Below, piece after piece: positions 2,591 to 46,562 of a DNA stretch of 48,721 nucleotides. The notes under the pieces are model-generated. The model saw nothing but the letters and a program-made list of their open reading frames with translations, was not told the origin of the DNA and searched no databases. The stretch spans positions 1 to 48,721 of the forward strand of contig QKFD01000022.1 in NCBI GenBank assembly GCA_003251535.1, written 5' to 3'. Within the stretch, counting starts at the first letter, position 1, and each line of letters opens with the position of its first letter. Source of the DNA: Chromatiales bacterium. GTDB taxonomy: Bacteria; Pseudomonadota; Gammaproteobacteria; Thiohalomonadales; Thiohalomonadaceae. The position numbers and the translations under genes are program-made.

Positions 2591-2608
2591 GGGGATATCC
2601 AGCACGGA

Positions 2609-2643
2609 CTGTCACCCGGCAGGGCACGTCGGGGGTGTGACAG
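2609..2643 (+). other. Stem-loop after the transporter operon
   Basis: CTGTCAC at 2609-2615 is complementary to GTGACAG at 2637-2643 (7 bp, 21-nt loop). It lies 19 bp after the ATPase stop and has no T-run, so termination is only a possibility. Confidence 0.35.
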
Positions 2644-2714
2644 CCGATCCATATGACGTCACTGGCAGGGGGGCGTGGGGGGGCGTGCCTCTGTCTTCAT
2701 GACGGCAACCCCCT

Positions 2715-2720
2715 TACAAT
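2715..2720 (+). promoter_or_regulatory. Possible -10 element for dcd
   Basis: TACAAT matches the sigma-70 -10 consensus at 5 of 6 positions and lies 26 bp before the dcd start codon, giving a short leader. No convincing -35 box is visible at 16-18 bp upstream. Confidence 0.4.
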
Positions 2721-2746
2721 GCACCCCTCGTTTTGGGGGTAGTCGC

Positions 2747-3313
2747 ATGAGCATCAAATCTGATCACTGGATCCGGCGCATGGCCGCCGAGCAGCACATG
2801 ATTGAACCGTTTGAGCCGGGTCAGGTGCGGGCGGTGGATGGCAACCGCATCATCTCCTATGGCACCTCTAGCTACGGCTACGACGTGCGCTGTGCCGATG
2901 AGTTTAAGATCTTCACCAACATCAACACCGCCATCGTCGACCCCAAGGCGTTCGATGCAAAAAGTTTCGTAGATGTTAAGTCGGACGTCTGTATTATTCC
3001 CCCCAACTCCTTTGCCCTCGCCCGTACCGTGGAGTATTTCCGCATCCCGCGCCGGGTCTTAACCATCTGTCTGGGCAAGTCCACCTATGCTCGGTGTGGC
3101 ATCATTGTCAACGTGACCCCCCTGGAGCCGGAGTGGGAGGGGCACGTTACCCTGGAGTTCTCCAACACCACCCCTCTGCCCGCCAAGATCTATGCCAATG
3201 AGGGAATTGCCCAGATGCTATTTTTGGAGTCGGACGAGGAGTGTGCCGTCTCCTATGCCGATCGGGGCGGAAAATATATGGGGCAGACCGGGGTCACGTT
3301 GCCGAAAACTTGA
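2747..3313 (+). CDS. dcd: dCTP deaminase
   Basis: The 188-residue enzyme deaminates dCTP to dUTP, feeding dUMP for thymidylate synthesis in the cytosol. The start MSIKSDHWI and the length match the gammaproteobacterial enzyme. Seen are [13 protein letters not shown] near residues 36-48, the nucleotide-binding/catalytic stretch [10 protein letters not shown] (about 110-119), [19 protein letters not shown] with the catalytic Glu, and a C-terminal GKYMGQ.GV tail that folds over substrate. An upstream in-frame ATG at 2675 would add 24 non-conserved residues; the ATG at 2747 is preceded by GGGGGT and is preferred. Confidence 0.96.
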
Positions 3314-3398
3314 CGCGCTTTGTCTGGAGTGGGCGCGGTTTGCACCGTCCTACGGGGCGTGATAAAAACGGAACGACCGGAGTTTTCCGGGGGGAAGC

Positions 3399-3422
3399 GT
3401 TGGGAGTGAGAGCCCTCCCAAC
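3399..3422 (+). other. Stem-loop in the leader of the CZB gene
   Basis: GTTGGGAG (3399-3406) pairs perfectly with CTCCCAAC (3415-3422). A smaller hairpin, CCGGA/TCCGG, precedes it at 3377-3390. They lie between dcd and the CZB gene; neither is followed by a T-run, so they may be processed leader structures or weak terminators. Confidence 0.4.
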
Positions 3423-3449
3423 CACAATAAACCACAGCGCGACGACGAC

Positions 3450-3833
3450 ATGCATAAACAACCGAAAGCCGAGATCCTCTCCCGCATCCGCCGGGCCCGC
3501 TCTTCGCATATCAAGTGGCGCTCTTACGCCTATGGGATGCTCGCTGGTCTGGAAGTGACCGAGGAGCACACCCCCATTGACTGCCACAACTGCGGATTTG
3601 GTCAGTGGTACTACGAGGAAGGTCAGCGCCTTTTCGGCCACATGGACACCTACGAGGGGTTAGAGATCCCCCACAAGGTGATGCACCAGGTCTATGACAA
3701 GATTTTTGACCTGGCGCAGCGGGGCAGACTAGACGAGGCGATTGGCTACGAAGACAAGCTGAACGCCCTCTCCCGGCAGCTGCTGGAGGCACTTGACCTG
3801 CTGGAACAAGAGGTCAAAGAGACATTGGCGTGA
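3450..3833 (+). CDS. Stand-alone CZB (chemoreceptor zinc-binding) domain protein
   Basis: The 127-residue soluble protein carries the signature of the CZB domain that binds zinc through a 3-His/1-Cys site. Candidate ligands are His20 in HIKW, Cys48 in CGFGQW, and His75 and His79 in PHKVMH. CZB domains usually form the C-terminus of chemoreceptors or a module of diguanylate cyclases (for example DgcZ), where zinc loss or cysteine oxidation by HOCl is sensed. Here the domain is the entire protein, with a helical C-terminal tail (about 85-127) rich in Leu and Glu. No receptor or CheW gene is adjacent. A partner could be one of the c-di-GMP enzymes far downstream, but that is speculation. No clear Shine-Dalgarno precedes the ATG. 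Confidence 0.8.
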   Translation: MHKQPKAEILSRIRRARSSHIKWRSYAYGMLAGLEVTEEHTPIDCHNCGFGQWYYEEGQRLFGHMDTYEGLEIPHKVMHQVYDKIFDLAQRGRLDEAIGYEDKLNALSRQLLEALDLLEQEVKETLA

Positions 3834-3859
3834 GATGGGGTGGGGCGCTAGAACCCGGT

Positions 3860-4600
3860 TTAGCGCTCCGCCGCCTCCACTGGCTTTATCCCCTGCTGAA
3901 ACTTCAGCGGCCGGCCGGCGATGGTATGGCCGTCATCCTCCTGCTCTAGCTGGATGAAGACATAGCCGAAGTCGATGGCCGCCCAGAAGCGGGTCTTGCG
4001 CTCCTTATTGTTGGAGATCCGCTCCACCTTGAGGGTGCGCAGGAGACCCATCGGTGTCTCCAGCTGCTCCTCCCCCAGGACCTGGAAGCGGTATTCGCGG
4101 ATCTTGCTGCGGTCGGCCACCGCATACTCGATATGCTGTTTGCCGGCGGCCAGATCGCGCCTCAGCTGTATCTGATAGTCGAGTTTGTCCAGCACCTGCG
4201 GGGTAATGGGTAGCGTGGTCCACTTGTTGTCCCGCAGTGAGGCGACGGTGCTGGCCTGCCAATCGAACTCCAACCGCTCCACCGTCTCCTTACTGCCGTT
4301 GGTGTGGCGATACAGATAGTGCTGTGGCTGCGGCCAACCCTCCTCCAGGCGCCACCAGCTGCGCTCGGTAAAGCGGTCATCTTTGAATACTGATACCAGT
4401 CCGGTGGTGTACATCACATGTTCGAGGATGAACCCCTTCCCCTGCGGATCCGGGTGTAGCGAGCGCTCCATACGACCGATAGTGAGGCCATCCAGCTCTA
4501 GGGAGAACTCGGCATAAAACGGCTGGGTGAGATCCAGCTCCTCCCCATGGCCGATCAGCGGTAAGAGTAGGAGGAGGGGGAGCAGACGGTGGAGGCGCAT
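3860..4600 (-). CDS. Exported DUF3108 family protein
   Basis: The 246-residue protein begins with a signal peptide (basic MRLHR, a Leu-rich core, probable cleavage after about residue 19). The mature part is beta-rich and matches DUF3108: the opening F.AEFSLELDGLTIG.ME, a YTTGLVSVFKDD segment, the central DKLDYQIQLRRDL and a final FWAAIDFGYVFIQLEQEDDGH. In other gammaproteobacteria such genes often sit near purine genes; here the gene stands alone and converges with the CZB gene (26 bp apart). The function is unknown, presumably periplasmic. Confidence 0.75.
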   Translation of the reverse strand: MRLHRLLPLLLLLPLIGHGEELDLTQPFYAEFSLELDGLTIGRMERSLHPDPQGKGFILEHVMYTTGLVSVFKDDRFTERSWWRLEEGWPQPQHYLYRHTNGSKETVERLEFDWQASTVASLRDNKWTTLPITPQVLDKLDYQIQLRRDLAAGKQHIEYAVADRSKIREYRFQVLGEEQLETPMGLLRTLKVERISNNKERKTRFWAAIDFGYVFIQLEQEDDGHTIAGRPLKFQQGIKPVEAAER

Positions 4601-29323: not shown

Positions 29324-29817
29324 TGGGTCGGCAACGCAAACATCCGGGCGAAGCCCGTAGCGCGGCGCGACGCTGGGCACTCCAGGCGCTCTATCAGTGG
29401 CAGCTCACCGGCCAACCGATGGGGGAGGTGATTGTCCAGTTCCTGGCCGATCTGCTCCCCACCGATGAGTCGGAGGAGGGGGAGGCGGAGGATGGTATCG
29501 CCCGGGAGGCCGACCGCGCCTACTTTACGGAGCTACTGGAGGGGGTGGCCGCCGAGCGCGCCACCCTCGACCAACTCATCAGCGAGTGGGTCGATCGCCC
29601 CCTGGAGCAGGTGGACCCGGTGGAGCGGGCCGCCTTGCGGTTGGGGGCCTTCGAGTTGAAGTTCCGCCTCGATGTCCCCTACCGAGTGGCCATCAACGAG
29701 GCGGTGGAGCTGGCCAAGTTGTTTGGCGGCGAGCAGGGGCACCGCTACGTCAACAGTGTGTTGGATAAGGTTGCCCGCGTCGTGCGAACGGCGGAGATGG
29801 GCGCCAAACGGCCTTGA
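29323..29817 (+). CDS. nusB: Transcription antitermination factor NusB
   Basis: The 164-residue all-helical RNA-binding protein joins NusE at boxA for rRNA antitermination. It shows ARRWALQALYQWQLT (about 13-27), FTELLEGVA, LDQLISEWVDRPLEQVDPVERAALRLGAFEL (about 80-110, in two parts) and VAINEAVELAKLFGGEQGHRYVN-VLD. A charged insert (about 48-63) is slightly longer than usual. It is coupled to ribH by a TAATG overlap. thiL, its usual downstream neighbour, is absent. Confidence 0.95.
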   Translation: MGRQRKHPGEARSAARRWALQALYQWQLTGQPMGEVIVQFLADLLPTDESEEGEAEDGIAREADRAYFTELLEGVAAERATLDQLISEWVDRPLEQVDPVERAALRLGAFELKFRLDVPYRVAINEAVELAKLFGGEQGHRYVNSVLDKVARVVRTAEMGAKRP

Positions 29818-29840
29818 GTGGCCCCACCCAGGGTGAGGTG

Positions 29841-32522
29841 ATGAGCGGCTGGAGCGGCGATCAGCGCAAGTTTCCTTTCCTCTTGGCAGCGAGCTATATC
29901 GCCTTTGGGGCGATCTGGATCCTGCTTTCGGATCGTTTGGCCGCCCTCTTGGCGGCCGGCGATCCGGTCCTCCTGACCCAGATCCAGAACTACAAGGGGT
30001 GGCTATTCATCGCCGTCACCGGCCTTGGGTTATTCCTCTTAGCCACCTTCTTTACCCGTGATGTCGCCCATGCCCGCACCGCCTTGATGGAGGAGCGGGA
30101 CTTCATCGCCTCGGTGCTGGATACCGCCGGCGCGCTGGTATTGGTGCTGGATCCCGCCGGTCGGTTGGTGCGCATCAACCGGGCGGTGGAGGAGGCGACC
30201 GGCTTCAGTGGCAGCGAGCTGATTGGCCAGAGCATCTGGGATCGGCTTATCCCGCGGGAGGAGATGGAGCGGGTGCGGCCGGTGTTTGACGCCCTGCTCG
30301 ACTCCCGCCAACCCAACCGCAGCGAAAACTACCTCCTCACCCGCGACGGGGGGCGCCGCCTGGTCACCTGGAGCAATACCGTTTTGGTCGATAGGACGGG
30401 CCAGGTGCGCCACCTCATCGCCAACGGTGTCGATATCACCCGCCAACACCAGGCGTTGATGGCGCTCCAGGCATCGGAGCAGCGCTTCCGGCGGCTGTTG
30501 GAGGGGGCGGCCGATGCCATCTTGGTGGCCGATGCCGAGAGTGGGGTGATCCTGCAAGCCAACCCACGGGCGGAGCTGCTGCTCGGGCGCACCACGGCCG
30601 AGTTGGTGGGGATGCACCAGGCCGATATCCACCCACCCGAGGAGCGGGCCCGCTATCGCGCCCTGTTCCGCAGCAGCAGCGTGGAGGGGCGCATCCTCGA
30701 TCAGGAGGCGCTCTGTGTGGTGCGGGCCGATGGTCTGCGGGTGCCGGTGGAGATCAGCTCCACGGTGATCGAGCTGGAGGGGCGGCGGGTGGTGCAGGGC
30801 ATCTTCCGCGATATCAGTGAACGCCACCGGGTGGAGGATCAGCTGCGCCGCCTCTCCCGGGTAGTGGAGACGGCCCCGGTGGCCATCATGATCACCGACA
30901 TCAGTGGCCGCATCGAGTACTGCAATCCCCGCTTCTACGACACCTCCGGTTACAGCCCGGCCGAGGTGATCGGCCAGAACCCCCGTCTCCTCAAATCGGG
31001 GGAGATGGCGCCAGAGCTGTTCCGTGATCTGTGGCAGACCATCTCCTCCGGGCGGGAGTGGTTCGGCGAGATGAAGAACCGGCGTAAGGATGGCGAGGCC
31101 TTCTGGTGGCACTGCGCCGTCGCCCCCATCCGGGATCGGGAGGGGGTGATCACCCACTACGTCAATATTGCCGAGGATATCAGCCGACTCAAGGTGGCAG
31201 AATCGACGGCGCGCCAGCTCACCTACTACGACCCCCTCACCAATCTCCCCAACCGTAGCCTCTTCCGGGAGCGGCTGGAGGCATCGGTACGCAGTGCCAA
31301 GGCACAGGGCGAGCAGGTGGCGCTGTTACTGGTGGATCTCGACCAGTTCAAGAAGGTCAACGACACCCTGGGCCACGCGGCGGGAGACCAGCTGATCCGC
31401 CAGGTGGCCCACCGCCTCGCCGAGGCGATCCCCTCCAGTGCCACCTTGGCGCGCCTGGGGGGCGATGAGTTTGCGGTCACCCTGCCCGATCCGGCTGAGG
31501 CCGAGGCGGCGGCGGTGGCGCGGCGGCTGCTGGAGGCGCTGGGGCGCCCCTTCTCGCTCCAGGGCCAGGAGATCTTTGTCACCGCCAGCATCGGTATCGC
31601 CCTCTACCCCAATGACGCCCGCGAGGTAGAGGAGCTGATCAGCAACGCCGATGTGGCGATGTTCCGCGTCAAAGAGGTGGGCCGCAACAGCTACCACTTC
31701 TTTACCGCGGATCTCAACGCCGCCTCCTTCGAGCGCTTGATGTTGGAGTCCGAGCTGCGCCACGCCCTGGCCCGGGAGCAGCTGCTACTCCACTACCAAC
31801 CCAAGGTGCGCCTGGCGGATGGGCGTCTCACCGGCATGGAGGCGCTGGTGCGCTGGCAGCACCCCGAGCTGGGGTTGGTCTCCCCCGGCCGCTTTATCCC
31901 ACTGGCGGAGGAGACCGGGCTCATCGTGCCTCTGGGGGAGTGGGTGCTGCGCAGCGCCTGTCAGCAGACCCGGCTCTGGCGCGATTTGGGACAGCAGGGG
32001 CTGCGGGTGGCGGTCAACCTCTCGGCACAGCAGTTCAAACTGCCCGATCTGGTGGAGCGCATCACCGCTATTTTGGTCGAGAGCGATCTACCCGGTGAGG
32101 CGCTGGAGCTGGAGATCACCGAGTCCGATATCATGCGCGATGCCGCCGAGGCGGCGCGTATCCTGAAGCAGCTCAAGGAGATGGGGATCCGCCTCTCCAT
32201 CGACGACTTCGGCACCGGCTACTCCTCCCTCGCCTACCTCAAACGGTTCCCCATTGACACCCTCAAGGTGGATCAATCCTTCTCCCGCGAGGTGACCGAG
32301 AGCCCTGATGATGCCGCCATCGCCCGCGCCGTCATCGCCTTGGGGCGCAGTATTGGGGCCCAGGTGGTGGCGGAGGGGGTGGAGACCCGCGCCCAGCTGG
32401 AGTTCTTCATCGCCGAGAGCTGTGATGAGGTGCAGGGCTTCTTCCTCAGTCGCCCGGTGCCGCCTGAGCAGTTCCAGCAGCTATTTGACTGCGCTGAGTG
32501 GTTGAGCGGACGCTGTGCTTGA
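29841..32522 (+). CDS. Membrane PAS-PAS-PAS-GGDEF-EAL cyclic-di-GMP enzyme
   Basis: The 893-residue protein has two N-terminal membrane helices (about 10-32 and 55-75), three PAS domains (about 80-200, 205-325, 330-445), a GGDEF domain and an EAL domain. The GGDEF signature ARLGGDEF is intact, but the RxxD inhibitory site expected just before it is missing (sequence PSSAT). The phosphodiesterase keeps EALVRW, NLSAQQF, EITESD, DDFGTGYSS, KVDQSF, AEGVET and the QGFF region. Both synthesis and breakdown are therefore possible, switched by the sensors. A TTG at 29814 would overlap nusB; the ATG at 29841 follows AGGGTGAGG. Confidence 0.9.
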   Translation: MSGWSGDQRKFPFLLAASYIAFGAIWILLSDRLAALLAAGDPVLLTQIQNYKGWLFIAVTGLGLFLLATFFTRDVAHARTALMEERDFIASVLDTAGALVLVLDPAGRLVRINRAVEEATGFSGSELIGQSIWDRLIPREEMERVRPVFDALLDSRQPNRSENYLLTRDGGRRLVTWSNTVLVDRTGQVRHLIANGVDITRQHQALMALQASEQRFRRLLEGAADAILVADAESGVILQANPRAELLLGRTTAELVGMHQADIHPPEERARYRALFRSSSVEGRILDQEALCVVRADGLRVPVEISSTVIELEGRRVVQGIFRDISERHRVEDQLRRLSRVVETAPVAIMITDISGRIEYCNPRFYDTSGYSPAEVIGQNPRLLKSGEMAPELFRDLWQTISSGREWFGEMKNRRKDGEAFWWHCAVAPIRDREGVITHYVNIAEDISRLKVAESTARQLTYYDPLTNLPNRSLFRERLEASVRSAKAQGEQVALLLVDLDQFKKVNDTLGHAAGDQLIRQVAHRLAEAIPSSATLARLGGDEFAVTLPDPAEAEAAAVARRLLEALGRPFSLQGQEIFVTASIGIALYPNDAREVEELISNADVAMFRVKEVGRNSYHFFTADLNAASFERLMLESELRHALAREQLLLHYQPKVRLADGRLTGMEALVRWQHPELGLVSPGRFIPLAEETGLIVPLGEWVLRSACQQTRLWRDLGQQGLRVAVNLSAQQFKLPDLVERITAILVESDLPGEALELEITESDIMRDAAEAARILKQLKEMGIRLSIDDFGTGYSSLAYLKRFPIDTLKVDQSFSREVTESPDDAAIARAVIALGRSIGAQVVAEGVETRAQLEFFIAESCDEVQGFFLSRPVPPEQFQQLFDCAEWLSGRCA

Positions 32523-33459: not shown

Positions 33460-35724
33460 TCAAGCGGCGCGCTCGGCCTGCGCATCGCCACACAGTCGGA
33501 AATAGAAGGTGGCCCCCTGATCGGGCACCGCCTCCGCCCAGATCTCCCCCCCGTGGCGGGCGATCACCCGTTGTACCGTCGCCAAGCCGATGCCGGTGCC
33601 AGCAAACTCCTCCTCACCGTGGAGTCGCTGGAAGGGGCTGAACAGCTTGCCGGCATAGCGCATATCAAACCCCACGCCGTTATCCCGCAGTTGGAATACC
33701 GTGCGGCCGTTGGCATCGGGTTGGGCGGTCAGCTCGATCTCGGCCTGCGCCCGGGTGCTGGTATATTTCCAGGCGTTCTCCAGTAGGTTCTCCAAGGCCA
33801 GGCGGCAGAGCCGGGGGTCACAGTGGCCGCGCAGCTGTGGCTGGATACGGACCGTCACCTGGCGCTGGGGTGCTTGGGCCCGCAGGGTATCGATGATCTC
33901 GTGGGCGATCCGGCTCAGGTCGATCTCCCTCACCCGCAGCTCGTAACGGTTGATGCGGGAGAGGCCGAGCAGGTCATCGATCAACTCGGCCATGCGGTTG
34001 GCGGCGCGCTGGACCCGTTGGAGATAGTCCTGCCCCTCCGCCGGCAACTGATCGGCGTAGCGCACCACCACCAGCCGAGAGAAGCCCTCGATACTGCGGA
34101 GTGGGGCGCGGAGATCGTGGGAGACCGAGTAGGTGAACGCCTCCAACTCGGCGTTGGTCTGCTCCAGGGCGGCGGTCCGCTCGCGCACCCGTGCCTCCAG
34201 GCGGCGGTTGAAGCCGACCAGCTGTTCACGGGCCAGCACCTGCTCGGTGATATCGCGCGCCACCCCCTCCACCGCTACGGGCTGGCCCTCCTCATCCCAC
34301 ACGTAGTAGGCGTTGATGGCGGCGTAGAGTGGGCCACCGTCGTCACGCGGTAGCTTCACCTCAAAGCCCCGCAGCTCGCCGCCACTCTCCGCCAGGCGGG
34401 CCAACAGCCGCGCTAGATCGGCGGGATCGGCGAGGCAGCGGCAGAGATCCAGATAGTGCCCCTCCTTGGCGGGGACGCCGCTCAACTCCTTGACCGACTG
34501 GGTGGACCAGAGCGGCCGCCCATCGATATCGAGGCGGAAGATCACATCCTGCACCCGCCGCAAGACCGCCTCTAGATCCCGCTGCGTCATCTCATGGCGG
34601 GCCTCGGCCTGCTCCCTGCCCCGGCGGTTCTCCTCCACCAGGGCGCGCAGCTCCGCCTTGCGCTGCTCCAGGACGCTGGCCATACGGTCAAAGTGTTGGC
34701 CTAGCTCCAGCAGTTCCGCGGGTCCGTTGTGGATGCCGCTGCGGGCCGCCAGGTCGCCGTTGGCGAGGCGACGAGTGGTGGCGAGCAGGCGCTGGAGCGG
34801 GGGTTCAATGAAGAGCCGACTGCCGAGTAGCGCCCCACCCACCCCGAGGAGGGTCATCACCGCCATGAGGGTCAGGGTGGTCACCAGCAGCTGATTGGCC
34901 GGTGGGGTGATGAGCCGGATGGGGCGGCCGACGGCGAGCAGCACCTGGCGACCAGCGGCGGTGGTCAGTAGCTGGCTGTGGGCAAACTCCCAGCGCTCCC
35001 CCCCGTGGTCGAGGGAGAGGCTGCCGGTAGGGGTGTGGAGTAGGCGGAATGAGGCGGCCACCAGCGCCGGCAAGGGGGCGCTCGACGGGCCGTAGTGGCC
35101 GATCACCTCCCCCCGCTCATCGACCAAGGTCACCGTGGTGCCGGCGGGTAGATGCTGCTGGGCAACCAGCTCGCCAAACCAACTCAATGGGAGTGACGCC
35201 CCGACCACCGCCAGCAGGGTGCCGTCGGCCTCCCGCACCGGATAGCTGAGGGTGAGCACCTGCTCCCCGGTGATGCGCCCGCGGATGAAGTCACCCACGA
35301 CAAAGCCCGTGCCGGCGGCGGCCCGCTGGAACCAGGCGGTGTCGGCCGAGTTGACCCGCTCCGGGAGCGGTTCGGCACTGGCGAAGGCCGTGCCATCCGG
35401 CGCGTTGGCAAAGAGGTTGAGATAGATGGGGTGCTCGGCCTTGAGGGCCGTCAGTAGCTCGGAGGTGGTTCCCGCCGCACGCTGGCGCACCTGGGGTAGG
35501 CGGGCGAGGGCGGCCAGCAGCTGGCGCGTGGCGTTGAGGGTGTTGTGGTGGGCGCTGGCCAGTAGTTCCCGCTCCTGTTCCAGCTCCGCCACCGCCAGCT
35601 CGATGAGGTGGGACTGCTCTTTGAAATAGCCGACCAACGCCAGCAGCAGCGCCGGTAGCAGCGCTGCGGCGGTGAGCAGCGCGAGGCGGGCGCGCAGGCT
35701 GGCGAATGGGCGTAGGCGTGCCAC
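33460..35724 (-). CDS. Membrane sensor histidine kinase (Cache-HAMP-PAS-HisKA-HATPase)
   Basis: The 754-residue kinase has a first membrane helix (about 12-33), an extracytoplasmic dCache-like sensor (about 35-275; YLNLFANAPDGTAFAS, LTLSYPVREADG), a second helix (about 280-303) and HAMP (about 305-358). PAS (about 385-500), a coiled-coil linker, the phospho-acceptor block SVSHDLRAPLRSIEGFSRL (about 535-553) and an ATPase with N-box LENLLENAWKY, G1 DNGVGFDM and G2 GTGIGLATVQR complete it. The SHDLRAPL form is that of phytochrome-like kinases using Rcp1-type receivers, matching the next gene. Cache domains bind small external ligands; which one is unknown. Confidence 0.93.
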   Translation of the reverse strand: MARLRPFASLRARLALLTAAALLPALLLALVGYFKEQSHLIELAVAELEQERELLASAHHNTLNATRQLLAALARLPQVRQRAAGTTSELLTALKAEHPIYLNLFANAPDGTAFASAEPLPERVNSADTAWFQRAAAGTGFVVGDFIRGRITGEQVLTLSYPVREADGTLLAVVGASLPLSWFGELVAQQHLPAGTTVTLVDERGEVIGHYGPSSAPLPALVAASFRLLHTPTGSLSLDHGGERWEFAHSQLLTTAAGRQVLLAVGRPIRLITPPANQLLVTTLTLMAVMTLLGVGGALLGSRLFIEPPLQRLLATTRRLANGDLAARSGIHNGPAELLELGQHFDRMASVLEQRKAELRALVEENRRGREQAEARHEMTQRDLEAVLRRVQDVIFRLDIDGRPLWSTQSVKELSGVPAKEGHYLDLCRCLADPADLARLLARLAESGGELRGFEVKLPRDDGGPLYAAINAYYVWDEEGQPVAVEGVARDITEQVLAREQLVGFNRRLEARVRERTAALEQTNAELEAFTYSVSHDLRAPLRSIEGFSRLVVVRYADQLPAEGQDYLQRVQRAANRMAELIDDLLGLSRINRYELRVREIDLSRIAHEIIDTLRAQAPQRQVTVRIQPQLRGHCDPRLCRLALENLLENAWKYTSTRAQAEIELTAQPDANGRTVFQLRDNGVGFDMRYAGKLFSPFQRLHGEEEFAGTGIGLATVQRVIARHGGEIWAEAVPDQGATFYFRLCGDAQAERAA

Positions 35725-35823
35725 TGGATCCTCCTGAATGGGCCATAGCGCGATTCTCCCGTGCCACCAGGCAGGGCGATATCAGCGGTGTGCGCGGCTT
35801 ACTGTCGGTCTTGCTCCTACAGC

Positions 35824-35842
35824 GCCAGGGGGGTCTCCTGGC
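35824..35842. promoter_or_regulatory. Inverted repeat upstream of the FNR-like gene
   Basis: GCCAGG and CCTGGC flank a 7-bp centre in the divergent region between the kinase gene and the FNR-like gene, 44 bp before the latter's start. Possible operator; no known consensus. Confidence 0.3.
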
Positions 35843-35885
35843 CGCGCGGTGGTCTAAGATGGAGACTCTAAAAATGAGGTCCGTC

Positions 35886-36590
35886 ATGAATCGCTCCCCC
35901 GCTTGGTGCCACCGTGTCGTCTGCCGCGCCTGCTCGGTGCGGGCCTCAGTGCTGTTTGCTGGGGTAGCGCCGGAGCTGCTGGCCCCCATCGAGGCGCAGA
36001 TCGACGAGGCGCGGCTGCCGGCGCGGGCGCGGCTCTACCCTCTGGGGGGGCGGGCCGATGCGGTGTTCACGGTCCAGTCGGGGCTCATTAAGCTGGTGCA
36101 GTCGCTACCGGATGGGACCGAGCGCATCGTGCGGCTGTTGAGCGGCGGTGATGTCGCGGGGTTAGAGGCGCTGGTCGAACAGCCCTACCAGCAAGAGGCG
36201 GTGGTGCTCCAGACCGCCCGTATCTGTCGCATCCCTGTGGCGGTACTGCGCCAACTGGCCGAGGAGAGCCCGCCCCTCTATGGCGAGCTGATGCGCCGCT
36301 GGCAGCGGGCGCTGGCGGAGGCGGATGCCTGGTTGACAGAGCTATCCACCGGCTCGGCCCGGCAACGGGTGGCGCGCCTGCTGCTGCGCCTGGCCGATAG
36401 CCAGGGTGAGGGGCGCTGCGCCCTGTTTAACCGCCGCGATCTAGGGGCCAGCCTAGGGGTGACCACCGAATCGGCCAGCCGGGCGGTGGCCAATCTGAAG
36501 CGGGAGGGGCTGCTACTGGAGCGGCCAGGGGGGTTCCACATTGATCCCGCGGGGATGGCGCGGGCGGCCCTCAATCCGGCGGGTGGCTAG
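35886..36590 (+). CDS. Crp/Fnr-family regulator with FNR-type cysteines
   Basis: The 234-residue regulator has a cyclic-nucleotide-fold sensor and a C-terminal winged helix. The N-terminus carries Cys8, Cys13 and Cys16 (WCHRVVCRACS). Cys114 (ICRIPVAVL) aligns with Cys122 of E. coli FNR (VCEIPFETL). The position of FNR Cys29 is hydrophobic here, so any Fe-S cluster would use a shifted set of ligands. The recognition helix reads TTESASRAVANL; its Glu, Ser and Arg match the FNR residues that read TTGA. The ATG at 35886 follows GAGGT at 5 bp. An FNR-type box lies 14 bp after its stop. Confidence 0.85.
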   Translation: MNRSPAWCHRVVCRACSVRASVLFAGVAPELLAPIEAQIDEARLPARARLYPLGGRADAVFTVQSGLIKLVQSLPDGTERIVRLLSGGDVAGLEALVEQPYQQEAVVLQTARICRIPVAVLRQLAEESPPLYGELMRRWQRALAEADAWLTELSTGSARQRVARLLLRLADSQGEGRCALFNRRDLGASLGVTTESASRAVANLKREGLLLERPGGFHIDPAGMARAALNPAGG

Positions 36591-37081: not shown

Positions 37082-40000
37082 CTACTCAGGCGGCGGCGTC
37101 AACCACTGCGGGGGCGGTTGGTAACGGGCGGCCCAGCCCATCAACTCCTCCGCCGGCATCGGCTTGGCGATGCCGTAGCCCTGGGCCAGCTGGCAACCGA
37201 GCTGCATCAATAGTGTGCCGTGCTGCTCGCTCTCCACCCCCTCGGCGATCACCCGCCGACGGAAGGCGTTGGAGAGGCCGATCACCCCCTCGACGATAGC
37301 GCGATCCCCTGGGTCCTCCAGCATGTCACGGACAAACGACTGGTCGATCTTGAGCGTCCCGGCCGGCAGATGACGCAGATAGGTGAGGGAGGAGTAGCCG
37401 GTGCCAAAGTCATCCAGCGCAAAGGAGACGCCGAGCCGACTGCACTCCTGGATCACCCGCGACACCCGCTCGATATCCTCCAACGCCGTCGATTCCAGGA
37501 TCTCCAGCTCCAAGGCGTCCCGCGGCAGGTGGGGGTAGTTGGCCAGCAGCCCTTCCAGGTGGCGGGGCAGTTCGGTCATCTGGAGGGCATGGGCGGAGAT
37601 GTTGACGCTCACCGCCAGCGGCAGCCCCTGGCGATGCCAACTGCCGGTCTGGCGCAGGGCCTGGGCCAGCACCCAGAGGTCCAGCTCCAGCGCCACCGGG
37701 CTATCGGTCAGTAGGGGCAGGAATTCGCCCGGGGGGAGGAGGCCCCGCTCCGGGTGTTGCCAGCGGATCAACGCCTCCGCGCCAAACACCCGGCCGGTGG
37801 GCATCTCCACCTTGGGCTGGTAGTGGAGGCTGAACTCCCCCTGCCGCAACCCGCTGCTGATGCGCTGCTGTGCCTCGCGTCGGGCCCGTAGTTGTAGATC
37901 GCGATCGGGATCGAAGAACTCGATGCGGTGGCGGCCCCCCTCCTTGGCGCTATACATCGCCTGATCGGCGTGCCGCAACAGGGTATCCGCGTCCGAGTTG
38001 TCGAGCGGGTAGAGGGTGGCGCCGATACTGGCCGAGAGGGTGAGTTTGATCGACTCCAGGGCAAACGGCTCGGCGATCACCGCGGTGATACGCCGCAGCA
38101 CTGCGCGGCTCTCCTCCACGTTGATGAGATCGGTCAGCAGCAGGACAAACTCATCGCCCCCGAGGCGGGCCACCGTATCCCCAGCGCGGATCGCCAGGCG
38201 CAGTCGCTCCGCCACCTCCACCAGCAGCTGATCCCCTATCTGGTGGCCGTGGGTGTCGTTGATCGGCTTGAAGCCATCCAAATCCAGATAGCAGACCGCC
38301 AACAGCCGGCCGCTCCGCTGCGCCTGCGCGGCGCTGACATGGAGGCGATCTGCCAACAGGGTGCGGTTGGGCAGCCGGGTGAGGGGATCGTAGTGGGCCA
38401 GGTAGGCGAGCTGCTGCTCAAACTGTTTACGCTCGGTGATATCCCTGCCCACCACCACCAGCCCCTTGCGCTGACCATCGGCATGGAAGGTGGGGATCTT
38501 GATGACATCGAACACCAGTTGGGAGCCGTCGGGGCGCGGGATCTCCTCATCTTGGCGACTCGCCGTGGCGGCCCGCCAGGCCCGTTCATCGGTCACCTGG
38601 CAGGTGCTGAGGGCCTCGCGGTAGAAGTCGCTGTAGATGGCCAACTCGGCGTCGGTCTTGCCGACATAATCGACCCCATCCAGCTGGAATAGGTGGAGAT
38701 CAAAGTGGTTGGCCAGTAGCCAGCGGCCGTCGCCATCTTTGAAGCAGACGATATCGGGCATGGCATCAATGAGGGTGCGGAGCATCTCCTCATTGGCCTG
38801 CAACTGCTCTTGGGCGCGGGTCAATTCGGTGATGTCACGGCTGATCCCCAGTAGGCCGCTCACCCGCCGGCTGCCCTCATCCAACACCGGCCACTTATTG
38901 GTGCTGACCCAGCCGAGGACGCCATCGGCGTTGTAGTAGGGGGTCACCTTGTTGAGTAGCGGCAGCGCCTCGCTATAGACCGGCTCCTCCTCCTTGGCGT
39001 AGATGCGCGCCATCTCGGGCGGGAAGACCTCGCTGTCGTGTTTACCCACCATCTCGCGCCAGCTCCGGTGGCCGGTGATGATGGCGAGGGGCTGGCTACA
39101 GAAGCGGTAACGGCCATCGGCATCCTTGAAGTAGAGGAAGTCGGTGGTGTTCTCCAAGAAGGTGAGGAAGTCGCGGTTGAGGGTCCGTAGCTGCTGATCC
39201 GCCTGGAGGCGATCGGTGATATCCCAAAAGATCGCCTGCACCCCCTCCACCTGACCGCTGGGACCGAAGATGGGGGTCTTGATCAGCTCCACCGAGCGCA
39301 GCTCGCCCCCATGTAGAAAGCGGTTCTGCTCAATGGTGTGGAGCGGTGCACGCTCCGCCATCACGCGCAGCTCCTCGGCCCGAAAGGTGGCGGCGGTCTC
39401 TTGCGGGAAGAGTTCAAAGGCGCTCTTGCCCCGCAGTGCCTCAAGGTGGGTACCTAGCTCCTCCAGCAGGGCGCGGTTGGCAAAGGTGATATGGCCGTCG
39501 CCATCCACGCGGTAGATATTGAGCGGCAGGCTATCCACCAGTGATTCGTAGAGCGCTCGGCTCTCCACCAGCTGCGCCTGCTCCTCCCGCAGCGCCCGCT
39601 CCGCCAGGTAGCGGCGGCGGATGTTGATGCCAAGCAAGAGGATCACCAGCCCCTGAATGGTCAACAACACCCACAGCAGCCGTTGGTGGTGGTGGTGGCT
39701 CGCATCCAGCTCGGCGGAGCGCTGTGCCACCAGTTGCTCCAAGCGGGCCTGATAGTCGCGCAGGTCCCCCTCCACCACCGTTTTGCCGGTGATGTCGTGG
39801 ATGATGGAGTGGAGCACCGTGCGGCCATCATTCAACCGAATGGGGGAGGAGTAGACCTCTACGGTGCGGATGGAGCCATCCGCCAGGCGGTGGGGAAAGA
39901 CAAAGTAGTTGCGCTGCTCCGCCGCGGCATGGGCCCGCTCCGCCGCCACCTCCTCCGCACTCAACAGGTTGAAGTCCTGGATCTTCATGCGGGTGAGCTG

Positions 40001-40222
40001 TTCGATGGGGTAGCCGTAGAAGCGGGCGGCGGCCTCGTTGGCGTCGATAATCTGTCCGCTCTGCGGCTCGATGAAGAGCATGATGGCGGTGTGGGGGCGG
40101 AACAGGGTGGAGAGCAGGTTCTCGCTGGCGCTCACCACGGCGACGGCGACCGGCATGAGGGCGATACAGACAGCGAGTAGCAGCACCGGCAGCCGGCGGC
40201 GTAGATGGGAGCTGAGGGCCAT
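37082..40222 (-). CDS. Membrane multi-PAS GGDEF-EAL cyclic-di-GMP enzyme
   Basis: The 1046-residue protein has membrane helices near 12-32 and 183-203, one PAS domain between them in a short external or membrane-linked loop (about 45-150), and three more PAS domains (about 235-350, 355-475, 485-600). The GGDEF domain (about 615-770) has an intact ARLGGDEF and an RAGD inhibitory site just before it. The EAL domain (about 785-1035) keeps EALIRW, NISAHAL, EILEST, DDFGTGYSS, KIDQSF, AEGVES and AQGYG. Both activities look intact, unlike the first GGDEF/EAL protein, which lacks the inhibitory site. It converges with the NifX-like gene. Confidence 0.9.
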   Translation of the reverse strand: MALSSHLRRRLPVLLLAVCIALMPVAVAVVSASENLLSTLFRPHTAIMLFIEPQSGQIIDANEAAARFYGYPIEQLTRMKIQDFNLLSAEEVAAERAHAAAEQRNYFVFPHRLADGSIRTVEVYSSPIRLNDGRTVLHSIIHDITGKTVVEGDLRDYQARLEQLVAQRSAELDASHHHHQRLLWVLLTIQGLVILLLGINIRRRYLAERALREEQAQLVESRALYESLVDSLPLNIYRVDGDGHITFANRALLEELGTHLEALRGKSAFELFPQETAATFRAEELRVMAERAPLHTIEQNRFLHGGELRSVELIKTPIFGPSGQVEGVQAIFWDITDRLQADQQLRTLNRDFLTFLENTTDFLYFKDADGRYRFCSQPLAIITGHRSWREMVGKHDSEVFPPEMARIYAKEEEPVYSEALPLLNKVTPYYNADGVLGWVSTNKWPVLDEGSRRVSGLLGISRDITELTRAQEQLQANEEMLRTLIDAMPDIVCFKDGDGRWLLANHFDLHLFQLDGVDYVGKTDAELAIYSDFYREALSTCQVTDERAWRAATASRQDEEIPRPDGSQLVFDVIKIPTFHADGQRKGLVVVGRDITERKQFEQQLAYLAHYDPLTRLPNRTLLADRLHVSAAQAQRSGRLLAVCYLDLDGFKPINDTHGHQIGDQLLVEVAERLRLAIRAGDTVARLGGDEFVLLLTDLINVEESRAVLRRITAVIAEPFALESIKLTLSASIGATLYPLDNSDADTLLRHADQAMYSAKEGGRHRIEFFDPDRDLQLRARREAQQRISSGLRQGEFSLHYQPKVEMPTGRVFGAEALIRWQHPERGLLPPGEFLPLLTDSPVALELDLWVLAQALRQTGSWHRQGLPLAVSVNISAHALQMTELPRHLEGLLANYPHLPRDALELEILESTALEDIERVSRVIQECSRLGVSFALDDFGTGYSSLTYLRHLPAGTLKIDQSFVRDMLEDPGDRAIVEGVIGLSNAFRRRVIAEGVESEQHGTLLMQLGCQLAQGYGIAKPMPAEELMGWAARYQPPPQWLTPPPE

Positions 40223-40532: not shown

Positions 40533-41081
40533 ATGACCGATCCCCAGCAGGACCTTCTCGCCACCGCTGAGGCGGAGATCCGCGATCTCCGGCGCACGGT
40601 CATCTCCCTGCGGGAGGTGTTGGAGCGCACCGAGCTGGAGGGGCATACCGCGGTACAGCGGGCCACCGCCCAGGCCGGGGCTGAGTTGGCCCAACTGCGC
40701 ACCACCATCGGGGTGTTGCGCGATGAGCTGGAGCACGTGGGGCTGGAGCGAGAGCGGATTTTGCAGCAGGAGCGGCTGACCGCCAGCCAAGAGGGGCAGC
40801 AGCTGCGCGATACCGTGGCGGCGCTGCGCGAGGCGCTGGAGCAGGCCCGCAACGACGCCGCCGAGGCGGTGCGGCAGGCGGTCTCCGCCAGCCAGGGGGA
40901 GATCAACCAGCTGCGCAGCACCGTCGCGGCCCTGCGCGCCACCCTGGAGGCCGAACGTTTCCACCGCGAGGCGGCGGAGCTGGAGGCGGAGCGGATCTAC
41001 GCCGAGGAGCGCCAGCAGCTGCATGAGACCATTCACCGCCTGCGGGAGACACTGGAGCGTGGGCGCGGTGAGACCGGATAG
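40533..41081 (+). CDS. Helical repeat protein: five 36-residue repeats (QLRxTVxxLRxxLE)
   Basis: The 182-residue protein is almost entirely helical, with no signal peptide or membrane segment. The motif [QDL]LRxT[VI]xxLRxxLE recurs with its first Leu at residues 19, 55, 91, 127 and 163, exactly every 36 residues; the fifth unit ends at the C-terminus. Thr (22, 58, 94, 130, 166), Leu-Arg (26-27 and so on) and Leu-Glu (30-31 and so on) are invariant except that the fifth copy has LH for LR. Linkers between motifs vary but always end in Glu. The cyclase gene begins 3 bp after its stop. I know no family with this repeat; a rod-like partner or scaffold for the cyclase is the simplest inference. 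Confidence 0.85.
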   Translation: MTDPQQDLLATAEAEIRDLRRTVISLREVLERTELEGHTAVQRATAQAGAELAQLRTTIGVLRDELEHVGLERERILQQERLTASQEGQQLRDTVAALREALEQARNDAAEAVRQAVSASQGEINQLRSTVAALRATLEAERFHREAAELEAERIYAEERQQLHETIHRLRETLERGRGETG

Positions 41082-41084
41082 CGG

Positions 41085-43379
41085 ATGACCATGATGGGTA
41101 CAGAGGGGCAACAGCCGATGGGCAGTGGGGATGGGCAGCAGCTGGCGGAGCGGGTGCGCTATCTGGAGCTGTTGTTGGAGGTGACCCGGCGCATGGCCAG
41201 CGTCGATTCCCTCGACGAGGTGCTGCGCACCCTGGTGGAGATCACCACCGCTGAGTTGCGGGCGGAGCGCGGCTCGCTCTTTCTCAACGACCCACAGACC
41301 AATGAACTCTACTCGCGGGTGGCCCAGGGCCATATCCAGCGGGAGATCCGCTTCATCAACACCACGGGTATCGCGGGTCACGTCTACAGCAGCGGCCAGG
41401 CGGCGATTGTCGATGACGCCTACACCGATCCCCGCTTCAACCGCTCCATCGATGAACAGACCGGCTTTACCACCAAGAGCGTGCTCTGTATCCCCATCAA
41501 GACCGTCAAGGGGGAGGTGATCGGCGTCGCCCAGAGCCTCAACAAGCGGGGGCGATCCTTCAATAGCGCCGACCTGGAGCTGTTTCAGGCGATGATCGCC
41601 CAGGGCACCTTGGCCCTGTTGAGCGCCCAGCAGATCGAGCGGATGCGGGCGCTCCGCCAGCAGGAGATGGAGTTTATCAATGTGGTATCGGAGGTGACCG
41701 CCGATATCCAGTTGGGCTCCCTGCTGCGGCGGGTGATGGGGGAGGCGACCCGGCTGCTCACCGCCGAGCGCTCCACCCTGTTTCTGAATGACGACAAGAC
41801 CGATGAGCTTTGGTCAGAGGTGGGGGAGGGGCTGGAGTCGATGCAGATCCGTTTCCCCAACCACGTCGGGATCGCCGGGGCGGTCTTCACCTCCGGTCGC
41901 TCCATCAACATCCCCTACGCCTACGCCGATCTGCGCTTCAACCCCGCCTTTGACCGCCAGACCGGCTTTTTTACCCGCTCCATCCTCTGTGTGCCCATCG
42001 TCAATAAGCAGGGGCGGACCATCGGTGTGACCCAGGTGCTCAACAAGCGCGGTGGGCCGTTTACCGCGGAAGATGAGTCACGGCTGCGGGCCTTCACCGC
42101 GCAGATCTCCATCGCCCTCGAAAACGCCAAGCTGTTCGCCGATGTGCAGAGCATGAAGAACTATAACGAGGCGATGCTGGAGTCGATGGCGAGCGGGGTC
42201 ATCACCCTGGACGAGGCGGAGCGCATCGCCACCTGCAACGCCGCCGGGCTGCGCATCCTGCGGGTGGGGGCGGCGGAGATCTTGGGGCGGCCGGTGCGGG
42301 AGTGCTTCACCGGCAGCAACGCCTGGGTGCTGGAGCGGCTGCGGCATGTGGCGGAGAGTGCCGTCACCGACACCATCATGGAGGGGGAGCTGCATATCGG
42401 CGAGGAGGCGGTGTCGGTCAATCTCACCGCCCTGCCACTGCTCTCCGCCGAGAAGCGGCGCATCGGCTCGATGCTGCTCATCGAAGATATCAGCAACGAG
42501 AAGCGGCTCAAATCCACCATGTCGCGCTACATGGACCCGGGGATCGCCGATCGGCTGGTGGCCAGCGGGGCCGAGGTGCTGGGGGGGCAGAGTGTCACCG
42601 CCACGGTGCTGTTCTGCGATATCCGCGCCTTCACCTCCATCGCCGAGCAGCTGGGGGCGCAGGGGACGGTGACCCTGCTCAACGACTACTTCACCCTGAT
42701 GGTGGAGTGCATCGCCCGCGAACAGGGGATGTTGGACAAGTTCATCGGCGACGCCATCATGGCCGCCTTCGGTATCCCGGTGGCCCACGACGACGACGCC
42801 GACCGGGCGGTGCGGGCCGCTATCCACATGATGCGCGAGCTGACCACCTGGAACCGGCTGCGCGTCTCCGACGGCAAGCTGCCGGTGGATATCGGCATCG
42901 GCCTCAACACCGATCAAGTGGTGGCCGGCAACATCGGCTCGAAGAAGCGGATGGACTACACCATCATCGGCGATGGGGTCAATCTGGCGGCGCGCCTGGA
43001 GTCGGCCTGTAAGCAGTACGGCACCCACATCCTGGTGAGCGAGTTCACCTACCGTCGGCTGCGCGGCACCTACTTTGCCCGGGAGCTGGACCTGGTGGTG
43101 GTGAAGGGGAAGTCGGCGCCGGTGGCCATCTTCGAGATCCTCGATTACCACAACGACGACACCTATCCCCAGCTGATCGACGCCCTCCGGGCCTTCAAGG
43201 TGGGGCTCACCCAGTATCGCCGCCGTGAATGGGCCGCCGCCAGCGAGGCGTTCCGCGAGGTGCTGGAGATCAACCCCCGCGATCAGGCGGCGGCGATCTA
43301 CCTGGAGCGGTGCGCCTGGTTCAGCGCCCACCCGCCGGAGGAGCAGTGGAATGGGGTCTGGGTCATGGAGTCGAAGTGA
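41085..43379 (+). CDS. Class III adenylate cyclase with GAF-GAF-PAS regulatory domains
   Basis: This 764-residue soluble cyclase has the layout of cyanobacterial CyaB1/CyaB2: GAF-A (about 40-185), GAF-B (205-350), PAS (360-475), catalytic domain (500-680) and a TPR-like tail (690-750). Metal-binding Asp512 (LFCDIRAF) and Asp556 (FIGDAIM), substrate Lys552 and Asp624 (RMDYT), and transition-state Asn633/Arg637 (GVNLAAR) indicate ATP as substrate and an intact site. GAF-B holds a full NKFDE cyclic-nucleotide motif (Asn320, Lys321, Phe326, Asp330, Glu331), while GAF-A ends in Asp-Leu. Feedback by cAMP through GAF-B is likely by analogy. ATGs at 41091 and 41094 are alternative starts. Confidence 0.93.
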   Translation: MTMMGTEGQQPMGSGDGQQLAERVRYLELLLEVTRRMASVDSLDEVLRTLVEITTAELRAERGSLFLNDPQTNELYSRVAQGHIQREIRFINTTGIAGHVYSSGQAAIVDDAYTDPRFNRSIDEQTGFTTKSVLCIPIKTVKGEVIGVAQSLNKRGRSFNSADLELFQAMIAQGTLALLSAQQIERMRALRQQEMEFINVVSEVTADIQLGSLLRRVMGEATRLLTAERSTLFLNDDKTDELWSEVGEGLESMQIRFPNHVGIAGAVFTSGRSINIPYAYADLRFNPAFDRQTGFFTRSILCVPIVNKQGRTIGVTQVLNKRGGPFTAEDESRLRAFTAQISIALENAKLFADVQSMKNYNEAMLESMASGVITLDEAERIATCNAAGLRILRVGAAEILGRPVRECFTGSNAWVLERLRHVAESAVTDTIMEGELHIGEEAVSVNLTALPLLSAEKRRIGSMLLIEDISNEKRLKSTMSRYMDPGIADRLVASGAEVLGGQSVTATVLFCDIRAFTSIAEQLGAQGTVTLLNDYFTLMVECIAREQGMLDKFIGDAIMAAFGIPVAHDDDADRAVRAAIHMMRELTTWNRLRVSDGKLPVDIGIGLNTDQVVAGNIGSKKRMDYTIIGDGVNLAARLESACKQYGTHILVSEFTYRRLRGTYFARELDLVVVKGKSAPVAIFEILDYHNDDTYPQLIDALRAFKVGLTQYRRREWAAASEAFREVLEINPRDQAAAIYLERCAWFSAHPPEEQWNGVWVMESK

Positions 43380-45221: not shown

Positions 45222-46562
45222 ATGAAGCGGATGTTTCTGCTGCTGACCCTGTTGCCAGTGGTGGCCATGGGCGGTGCCAGCGGGGCCAGGCTGCCCGAGT
45301 TTGTCTTCACGCCGCCCCCCTTTGCCGACCAAAGTGATCCCAAGATCGCCCAGCTTATCTCCCGCTCCGCGCAGCTCACCTATGAGTATCCGGCCAAGGC
45401 CCGCCCGTTGGTGGTCGAGGCGCTGGAGATGGCCAGCAAGGGGCGGGAGATAGAGGAGTATGACTACCTCTATAGCCTCTACCTGTTGGAGAAGAACTGC
45501 TTCTCCGGCCCGGACTCCGCCGAGTTTGGACCCGGTACGCCGGAGGACTACGACCGGGTGGCCTGGCTGCTCCTTGGGCTGCTAGAGGGGAAGGCCGGGC
45601 AGTGGGTCTTCACGCCCCAGGGGCGGTTCTACCTGGAGGCCTATTTCGCCGTAGGTAATGGCCTGGCCTGGCGGCTCTATGAGCAGGCCGGGGAGGACCC
45701 ACAGAAGTTGGCGAAGGCGCTGGCCGTGGTCCAGCCAGTGGCGGCCTTGGTGGACCGCCCGCAGTATAACTATGTCTTGGATACCGAGGTCCGTATCCTG
45801 CTCAAGATGGGGCGTAGTGAGGAGGCCTATCGGATCGTCCACCAGGTGCTCGCCCGTCACCCGCAGTTTGAGAATTTTGCCGATATCCGCAAGAGTGCGG
45901 CCTATCAGACGTGGCTGGAGGAGCTGACCGCCATGACCACGGAGGGCACCTCTAGCGATGGCCCCCAGCCGGAGTCAGAGGTGGAGCGCATCCAGCAAGG
46001 GCTGGATAAGTTTAATAAGTACCTGGCGAAGGCGTTTGATCCATCGACCGTGGAGTGGTACCGGCTGGGCTTCAAACCACCGGATAGCGCCGACACCCTC
46101 GCGGCCCTCGGTAAACAGACCGGCCTCCCGGTACCCACCAGCCTATCCGAACTGCTGACCCGCTATGGGGCACCCCACTCACCGGCCGAGACCGATTGGC
46201 AGGCGCTAGAGCTATATTCAGCGGCCGAGCTGCTGCACCAGTCCACCGGACTGAGTGCGGCCATTGATGAGACCTGGGGCGGACGCCCTGAGTTGGCGGA
46301 GTGGTTTACCCCTGAGCAGCGGCAGCGGATCGATCGGCAGGGGGTGGTCTTCGGCACGCGCAGGATCGACGACAATACCATCGAGTACCTCATGTACGAC
46401 GCCGCGGGCACCTTCCTCCGCGTCAGCTACTTCCAGGACGATCCGACCGACGCCGTGCAGTTCTTGACAGCCCTGCTCGACACGCCGCCCACTGGCGGCT
46501 CGTTGGAGGCGTTGTTAGCCGAACAGTTGCGTGAGATAAGGCGTGCCCTGAGCGAGGAGTAG
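45222..46562 (+). CDS. Exported protein with TPR-like N-terminal half and possible SUKH (SMI1/KNR4-like) C-terminal domain
   Basis: The 446-residue protein has a signal peptide (MKRMFLLLTLLPVVAMGG). The helical half (about 35-235) has repeating pairs such as RPLVVEALEMASKGREIEEYD and SEEAYRIVHQVLARHPQFENF, like TPR arrays. From about 275 the text resembles SUKH proteins: WYRLGFKPPDSADTLAALG, then GLPVPTSLSELLTRYGAP, LELYSAAELL and a late VVFGTRRIDDNTIEYLMYDA..FLRVSYFQDD. SUKH domains are best known as immunity proteins against nuclease toxins, but many have other roles. No toxin gene is adjacent. The GCACGTTAGAGGACC leader gives a usable Shine-Dalgarno (AGAGGA). Confidence 0.6.
   Translation: MKRMFLLLTLLPVVAMGGASGARLPEFVFTPPPFADQSDPKIAQLISRSAQLTYEYPAKARPLVVEALEMASKGREIEEYDYLYSLYLLEKNCFSGPDSAEFGPGTPEDYDRVAWLLLGLLEGKAGQWVFTPQGRFYLEAYFAVGNGLAWRLYEQAGEDPQKLAKALAVVQPVAALVDRPQYNYVLDTEVRILLKMGRSEEAYRIVHQVLARHPQFENFADIRKSAAYQTWLEELTAMTTEGTSSDGPQPESEVERIQQGLDKFNKYLAKAFDPSTVEWYRLGFKPPDSADTLAALGKQTGLPVPTSLSELLTRYGAPHSPAETDWQALELYSAAELLHQSTGLSAAIDETWGGRPELAEWFTPEQRQRIDRQGVVFGTRRIDDNTIEYLMYDAAGTFLRVSYFQDDPTDAVQFLTALLDTPPTGGSLEALLAEQLREIRRALSEE

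Follow-up and report, generated by a model that had tools for sequence, protein, structure and literature searches.

Tandem-GAF adenylyl cyclases are known enzymes which, to our knowledge, have been studied as single proteins. In the Pycsar defence systems an adjacent effector is gated by cyclic nucleotide, and Apyc1 is an enzyme that breaks cyclic nucleotides. Straight coiled coils mix heptads and hendecads, and tropomyosin-like repeat rods offer parallels for the protein described here. In this work we analyzed a 48,721-nucleotide stretch of DNA from a Chromatiales bacterium (contig QKFD01000022.1; the whole stretch is hereafter called the window), in which the gene of a repeat protein, the rod, lies directly ahead of the gene of a tandem-GAF class III adenylyl cyclase. 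No description of such a rod-cyclase pair was found in the open-access literature, subscription papers being mostly outside the search; as far as searched, the enzyme is of a known kind, and the rod family and the obligate-looking pair are undescribed in that literature.

Pairing of the rod and cyclase genes

Both genes are on the + strand of the window and share a reading frame:

40533..41081, + strand: rod (repeat) gene, open reading frame (ORF) with ATG start, 182 amino acids, stop TAG at 41079-41081
41082..41084, no strand: spacer of 3 bp (CGG) from the rod stop to the cyclase start
41085..43379, + strand: tandem-GAF class III adenylyl cyclase gene, ORF with ATG start, 764 amino acids

The first-pass annotation of this DNA had described a repeat protein ending 3 bp before the start of a GAF-GAF-PAS cyclase, and the two ORFs, the CGG spacer and the Pfam domains are all seen. 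Its proposal that the genes are made together agrees with their adjacency, their common strand and a gene order conserved wherever both ends are visible; a consensus scan, the only method applied here, gave no terminator-like site between them. The genome of the window carries six Guanylate_cyc genes but one rod gene.

A scan of a genome collection with the cyclase, from which the best 80 of 104 related loci were kept, gave 82 loci together with the window and one genome of the same family. A rod gene was located directly upstream of a close cyclase in 80 of them (79 by script, locus L005 by eye), and the remaining two end at a contig edge, 173 bp (L027) and 127 bp (L034) ahead of the matched start. 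By alignment to the start of the window cyclase, the two genes were estimated to overlap by about 50 bp at one extreme and to be 140 bp apart at the other, and the order was rod then cyclase in every paired locus seen. The loci are labelled Rhodocyclaceae, Sulfuritalea, Massilia, Pseudoduganella, Gallionella, Methylobacter, Methylomonas, Riflebacteria, Deltaproteobacteria, Rokuibacteriota and Rhodospirillaceae; this label-based spread is beta-, gamma-, alpha- and deltaproteobacterial and includes Rokuibacteriota and Riflebacteria, some labels of metagenome bins being plainly wrong.

Three surveys covered whole taxa; since they and the collection loci share some species, their counts are not summed. 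In the class survey (274 genomes of the window's class, rod threshold E<=1e-8), rods were present in 7 genomes, the window's included, and 7/7 were directly upstream of a cyclase; the 12 cyclase matches (E<=1e-100), in 10 genomes, comprised 7 of at least 54% identity to the window cyclase, all paired, and 5 of at most 49%, all unpaired. The order survey (349 genomes of the order to which the genome of L053 belongs) gave rods in 24 genomes, 24/24 beside a cyclase, and 37 cyclase matches in 30 genomes, with 24 at 54-76% identity all paired and 13 at 45-49% unpaired; seven of these 13 are second copies beside a paired cyclase in the same genome. In both surveys a limited set of candidates was scored in each genome, at most 12 or 9 rod and 3 cyclase candidates, and weak rods and extra cyclase copies may therefore be missed. 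In the phylum survey (39 genomes of the phylum of a Riflebacteria-labelled locus), rods were found in 7 genomes, 7/7 beside a cyclase; among 33 cyclase matches in 20 genomes, 8 had 66-69% identity, seven of them paired and one at a contig end, and no rod was found at the 25 cyclases of at most 49% identity. Furthermore, a rod profile search of 25 genomes behind the collection loci returned one rod gene each, always at the cyclase, the multiple matches in two genomes falling inside the single gene (E<=1e-6 here and in the order and phylum surveys).

Over 131 cyclase loci, a rod match was obtained in 111; two close cyclases without one are at a contig edge, and the other 18 have at most 48.8% identity. 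The rod profile (E<=1e-3) found nothing in 29 fetched distant loci, made up of these 18 and 11 further ones and drawn from 43 survey matches; the other 14, all from the phylum survey and some at a contig end, were judged by the silence of the rod profile. For L153-L164 the absence of a rod was checked over whole loci. In an unrooted tree of 117 cyclases, from which 12 truncated or duplicate loci were excluded by hand, as were exact duplicates, the 99 paired enzymes separated from the 18 unpaired ones with support 1.0. From the surveys, the distant loci and the tree we conclude that the rod accompanies one branch of tandem-GAF cyclases and not tandem-GAF cyclases generally. Co-occurrence across genomes, which had been proposed as a check, thus turned out in favour of the pair: the rod homologues found always adjoin this cyclase, the contrary of homologues never next to one.

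No other conserved neighbour emerged from a comparison of ORFs of at least 90 amino acids within about 4 kb, many loci being shorter: leaving aside cyclase shadow ORFs, no family occurred in more than 21 of the 82 loci, and none extended beyond one clade. That the two proteins are co-transcribed yet functionally separate is scarcely credible, as in the searched genomes neither a rod without this cyclase nor a cyclase of the branch without a rod was seen, contig ends excepted, and no other gene is kept alongside the pair. The partnership is well supported by conservation.

As to its mobility, the window cyclase is 74-78% identical to many Rhodocyclaceae-labelled homologues; in 19 genomes of its own family a single close homologue was found, at 59% identity. 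In the tree the window cyclase groups with the Rhodocyclaceae-labelled enzymes (support 0.86), and horizontal transfer of the pair is possible. On plasmids, neither a cyclase match at E<=1e-100 nor a rod match at E<=1e-6 was obtained. A search of viral contigs gave one match (L146, 2837-6846), a contig ending in a rod-cyclase pair right after an integrase-like ORF, and because of this ORF the pair is probably host flank. The L146 locus may be a prophage insertion site.

Among the surroundings of the pair, an HD-GYP phosphodiesterase-like ORF (by eye) overlaps the rod start by 4 bases in the same-family genome G003 (L005, 4198-5199, - strand). In the window, a Crp/Fnr-type regulator with cNMP_binding and HTH_Crp_2 domains (35706-36590, + strand) precedes the rod gene by about 4 kb and is a possible candidate for a reader of cyclic AMP (cAMP) near the pair. 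A large PAS-GGDEF-EAL protein (37082-40222, - strand) is transcribed away from the rod gene, a second one lies at 29814-32522 (+ strand), and an ORF of 446 amino acids at 45222-46562 (+ strand) has no Pfam match at E<=1e-5.

Repeats, predicted structure and a natural fusion of the rod protein

The window rod is composed of five 36-residue repeats, the fifth partial:

40575..40682, + strand: repeat unit 1, residues 15-50
40683..40790, + strand: repeat unit 2, residues 51-86
40791..40898, + strand: repeat unit 3, residues 87-122
40899..41006, + strand: repeat unit 4, residues 123-158
41007..41078, + strand: repeat unit 5, partial (first half of the unit and a short tail), residues 159-182

At a lag of 36 residues the protein matches itself at 51 of 146 positions, against 14.8 +/- 3.6 in 5000 shuffles (maximum 30). 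Identity of the gene at a lag of 108 nucleotides is 51%, and a tandem-repeat finder run on the window reported nothing at the rod gene, from which we take the repeat to be old and maintained at the protein level. Rods of this family begin with a short head, continue with n 36-residue units, the last of which is about half complete, and end in a short tail. Repeat cores were spaced by 36 or 72 residues in 79 rods (72 corresponding to a unit missed by the strict pattern) and by 36 in the L005 rod, and the best self-match lag was 36 in 31/31 further rods, weakly so in L105; the period was 36 in all 111 rods examined. Insertions or deletions of 7 or 11 residues between units were not seen in these rods. 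The consensus of 320 full units is EIxQLKxTVxALREELExARxERExAVQxA followed by six variable residues, with R13 (99%), L12 (97%), L16 (95%) and E17 (94%) as its strongest positions.

Unit number, on the other hand, varies: among the 79 rods five units were counted in 32, six in 23, four in 22 and ten in one, the last rod being L055, for which an apparent three copies was rejected as a start-codon artefact (its open frame is 165 amino acids). Non-redundant counts were made on 75 of the 79 script-found loci, which a limit of 85% cyclase identity reduced to 24. A one-unit difference separates close relatives (L029/L032, L035/L038 and L061/L069), their cyclases being 90-92% identical. The ends of the rod are not better conserved than its interior, the first repeat scoring 2.84 and the last 2.76 bits against 2.85-3.10 for inner repeats. 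As far as the sequences tell, rod length is free, and unit size and phase are fixed. The idea put forward at first, that repeat number sets the geometry, is consequently unsupported, with copies of 4, 5, 6 or 10 and one-unit shifts between such near relatives, and a rod of free length with a fixed unit looks to us more like a multivalent strip than like a lever or a length-setting ruler. The median ratio of non-synonymous to synonymous substitution rates was 0.142 for the rods (25 close pairs, not independent) and 0.085 for the cyclases of 16 of those pairs; given the former value, the rod genes look real and under selection.

An AlphaFold2 model of the rod, from 30 sequences, is a single unbroken helix over residues 4-181 with a mean predicted local distance difference test score (pLDDT) of 95, which agrees with the rod shape suggested in the first-pass annotation. 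Of 12 periods tried on 79 whole proteins, 3.60 residues per turn gave the highest hydrophobic moment, ahead of both 3.5 and 3.67. Within a unit, the first 20 residues favour a period of 3.5 or less and the second half one of 3.7-3.8, and an ordinary heptad rhythm (3.5) was rejected since it suits the first half only. Heptad-like and hendecad-like halves would thus cancel, 36 residues making ten full turns of a 3.6-residue helix, or about 54 angstrom, and therefore all units should face the same way. Read as heptads, the unit has I/V/L at a and L/L/A at d; its g positions (1, 15, 22) are acidic in 97, 54 and 67% of units and its e positions (6, 13, 20) basic in 85, 99 and 43%. Coiled-coil rules take this e/g charge pattern, with beta-branched residues at a and Leu at d, to favour a parallel dimer. 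The continuous predicted helix and the regular hydrophobic seam are as expected of a coiled-coil rod, probably a parallel two-stranded one.

The rod had no match above cut-off in Pfam, where all matches were sub-threshold, or in NCBIfam, and none at E<=1 among PDB sequences. DUF6779 was touched by 14 of 30 members and Cnn_1N by 9 of 30 (E<=1e-3); we took these as generic coiled-coil matches, not as a known family for the rod. The length of the rod, its many similar sites and its lack of a domain above cut-off would suit a tether bound to a third component, for example the cell pole, membrane, nucleoid or some other filament, to which it would bring the cyclase. This we consider quite unlikely, given that no third gene is conserved nearby, although such a partner could sit elsewhere.

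One rod is part of a larger protein. In L165, which is the same as L122 and comes from genome G520 of the order survey, the rod forms the C-terminal part of a protein of 634 amino acids (2559-4463, - strand) whose gene has its stop 5 bp before the cyclase ATG. The N-terminal part holds an HCHDDH motif, which we take to resemble that of metallo-beta-lactamase-fold enzymes. Lactamase_B_2 (E 2e-4) and an NCBIfam MBL-fold hydrolase (E 0.018) match it below cut-off, and among PDB sequences it comes nearest to 7t28, a putative metal-dependent hydrolase (E 0.016), and Apyc1 (7u2r, E 0.29). No relatives of this hydrolase-like domain were found in the other collected loci. The fusion hints at a scaffold able to bring a second nucleotide enzyme to the cyclase. 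Other long rod ORFs were rejected as fusions: in L061 and L062 (784 and 905 amino acids) the N-terminal parts overlap opposite-strand ORFs and the rod starts at an internal ATG, and those of L112, L116 and L123, for which Pfam gave nothing, seem on inspection by eye to be read-through of a non-coding frame.

Domains and active site of the cyclase

Two GAF domains, a PAS domain and a Guanylate_cyc domain, in that order, exceed the Pfam cut-off in the cyclase:

41127..41198, + strand: N-terminal helix ahead of GAF-A, residues 15-38, in an AlphaFold2 model of moderate quality
41211..41609, + strand: GAF-A, residues 43-175, Pfam PF01590
41745..42125, + strand: GAF-B, residues 221-347, Pfam PF13492, NKFDE residues 320, 321, 326, 330 and 331
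42168..42506, + strand: PAS domain, residues 362-474, PF00989 and PF08448
42597..43115, + strand: class III catalytic domain, residues 505-677, PF00211, with D512, K552, D556, D624, N633 and R637
43194..43283, + strand: TPR-like helical hairpin, residues 704-733, TPR_2 below the Pfam cut-off, AlphaFold2 helices 697-712, 716-729 and 734-748

The cyclase model (mean pLDDT 73, predicted template modelling score (pTM) 0.39) has long linker helices at 161-205, 328-365 and 471-498, between the GAF, PAS and catalytic domains. A rod acting as a stoichiometric inhibitor or chaperone might capture these helices and hold the cyclase off or soluble. Both the helices and the joint production of the two proteins would fit, but a fixed 36-residue unit present in varying number is left unexplained, and we regard this role as decidedly improbable.

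The model also opens with a helix (15-38) immediately ahead of GAF-A, on which the C-terminal end of the rod could stack, a detached signalling helix passing its signal along a common two-fold axis. The constant rod-then-cyclase order is as expected from such an arrangement, and the N-terminal enzyme domain of L165 would suit an input at the far end of the rod. However, near relatives differ in copy number, conservation does not rise towards the terminal repeats, and a lever should accept 7- or 11-residue insertions or deletions between units, of which none was seen; the arrangement is therefore unlikely.

D512, K552, D556, N633 and R637 are kept in 99/99 aligned paired cyclases, and position 624 is Asp in 94 and Asn in 5. 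We take the two metal-binding Asp, the Lys/Asp pair for adenine and the Asn/Arg pair for the transition state to be the roles of the six, and K552 and D624 presumably indicate ATP as substrate. With all six catalytic residues in place, the window cyclase is predicted to be active. In GAF-B the N, F, D and E of the NKFDE motif are present in 99/99 paired cyclases, with K (90 cyclases) or R (9) at the second site. Of the cAMP-contacting residues of Anabaena CyaB2 given in PMC4411481, R and T are retained in the GAF-B of the window cyclase. Conservation restricted to the paired cyclases was seen in 34 alignment columns, of which 13 belong to the catalytic domain and 9 to GAF-B. Segment 277-296, with five of the nine, aligns with the stretch of CyaB2 containing D356 and N359, and it may be either a docking surface or the site of an altered ligand preference.

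A proposed scaffold model for the pair

Taken together, we tentatively favour a dedicated scaffold, in which the rod would hold cyclase dimers side by side, or a cyclase beside another enzyme. The first gene would give a long straight coiled-coil rod, probably parallel and two-stranded, and the second a cyclase expected to produce cAMP, whose GAF domains may, by homology to Anabaena CyaB2, bring about its stimulation by cAMP. Every unit would show the same residues on the same side, making the rod a strip of identical sites along which the dimers, or a dimer and another enzyme, could be placed. In a more specific version, possible but somewhat unlikely, the 36-residue units would dock cyclase dimers on one face like a molecular comb, giving linear arrays in which neighbours are mutually activated by local cAMP and to which a nucleotide-destroying enzyme could be attached. 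The parallel dimer, binding of the rod to the cyclase, clustering, cAMP feedback and activity of the fused hydrolase-like domain of L165 are all points that we infer.

Several findings weigh against the scaffold. Related cyclases without a rod exist, and no rod-cyclase fusion occurs among 111 rod matches. Rod and cyclase distances correlate (r = 0.83, 65 loci), which linkage alone predicts, and recombination adding or removing whole units could account in part for the fixed unit size. The rod was modelled as a single chain (pTM 0.49). The L165 fusion is a single case in one genome, with family matches all below cut-off and Apyc1 at E 0.29. Finally, GAF-A lacks the final Glu of NKFDE, Leu standing there in 81 of 99 paired cyclases, and N359 of the CyaB2 pocket (PMC4411481) aligns with Thr in the window cyclase, which makes cAMP binding by the GAF domains uncertain.

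What the locus adds is one branch of tandem-GAF cyclases with a seemingly obligate, unnamed partner. If the rod does cluster or gate the cyclase, it would add a new level to the control of cAMP in bacteria and provide protein design with a repeat rod of defined 36-residue pitch; a comb, if true, would be a dedicated array scaffold for bacterial cAMP production.

Comparison with known systems

Like the coiled-coil rods mentioned above, the rod family presents a repeating surface on a long helix, with an average of 3.6 residues per turn; the window's rod differs from them in that a search of PDB sequences gave nothing at E<=1. PycC models recognize the catalytic domain of the window cyclase (best E 3e-27) and nothing outside it. 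A Pycsar operon was rejected, the rod having no cyclic-nucleotide-binding or effector domain above cut-off and the pair no other conserved neighbour, and the weak Apyc1-like match sits in L165, a different genome from that of the window.

The best PDB matches of the window cyclase are 1ykd, the tandem GAF of Anabaena CyaB2 (E 3e-44), and, for the catalytic domain, 3r5g 'CyaB', presumably from Pseudomonas. With Anabaena CyaB1 and CyaB2 it shares the order GAF-GAF-PAS-class III catalytic domain, and it differs, as far as published text tells, in being paired with a rod: in the main text of PMC4411481 on CyaB2 the words 'operon' and 'upstream' do not occur.

The sister cyclases, about 40-49% identical (L102-L104, L126-L140, L153-L162 and L164), agree with the window cyclase at five of the six catalytic sites (18 aligned) but have a rod gene in 0/29 fetched loci. 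At the sixth site, Glu replaces Asp624 in 14 of the 18 unpaired cyclases (L102-L104, L126-L140), and this position helps to choose the base in class III cyclases. These rod-less sisters, some of them in the same genomes as pairs, constitute natural controls.

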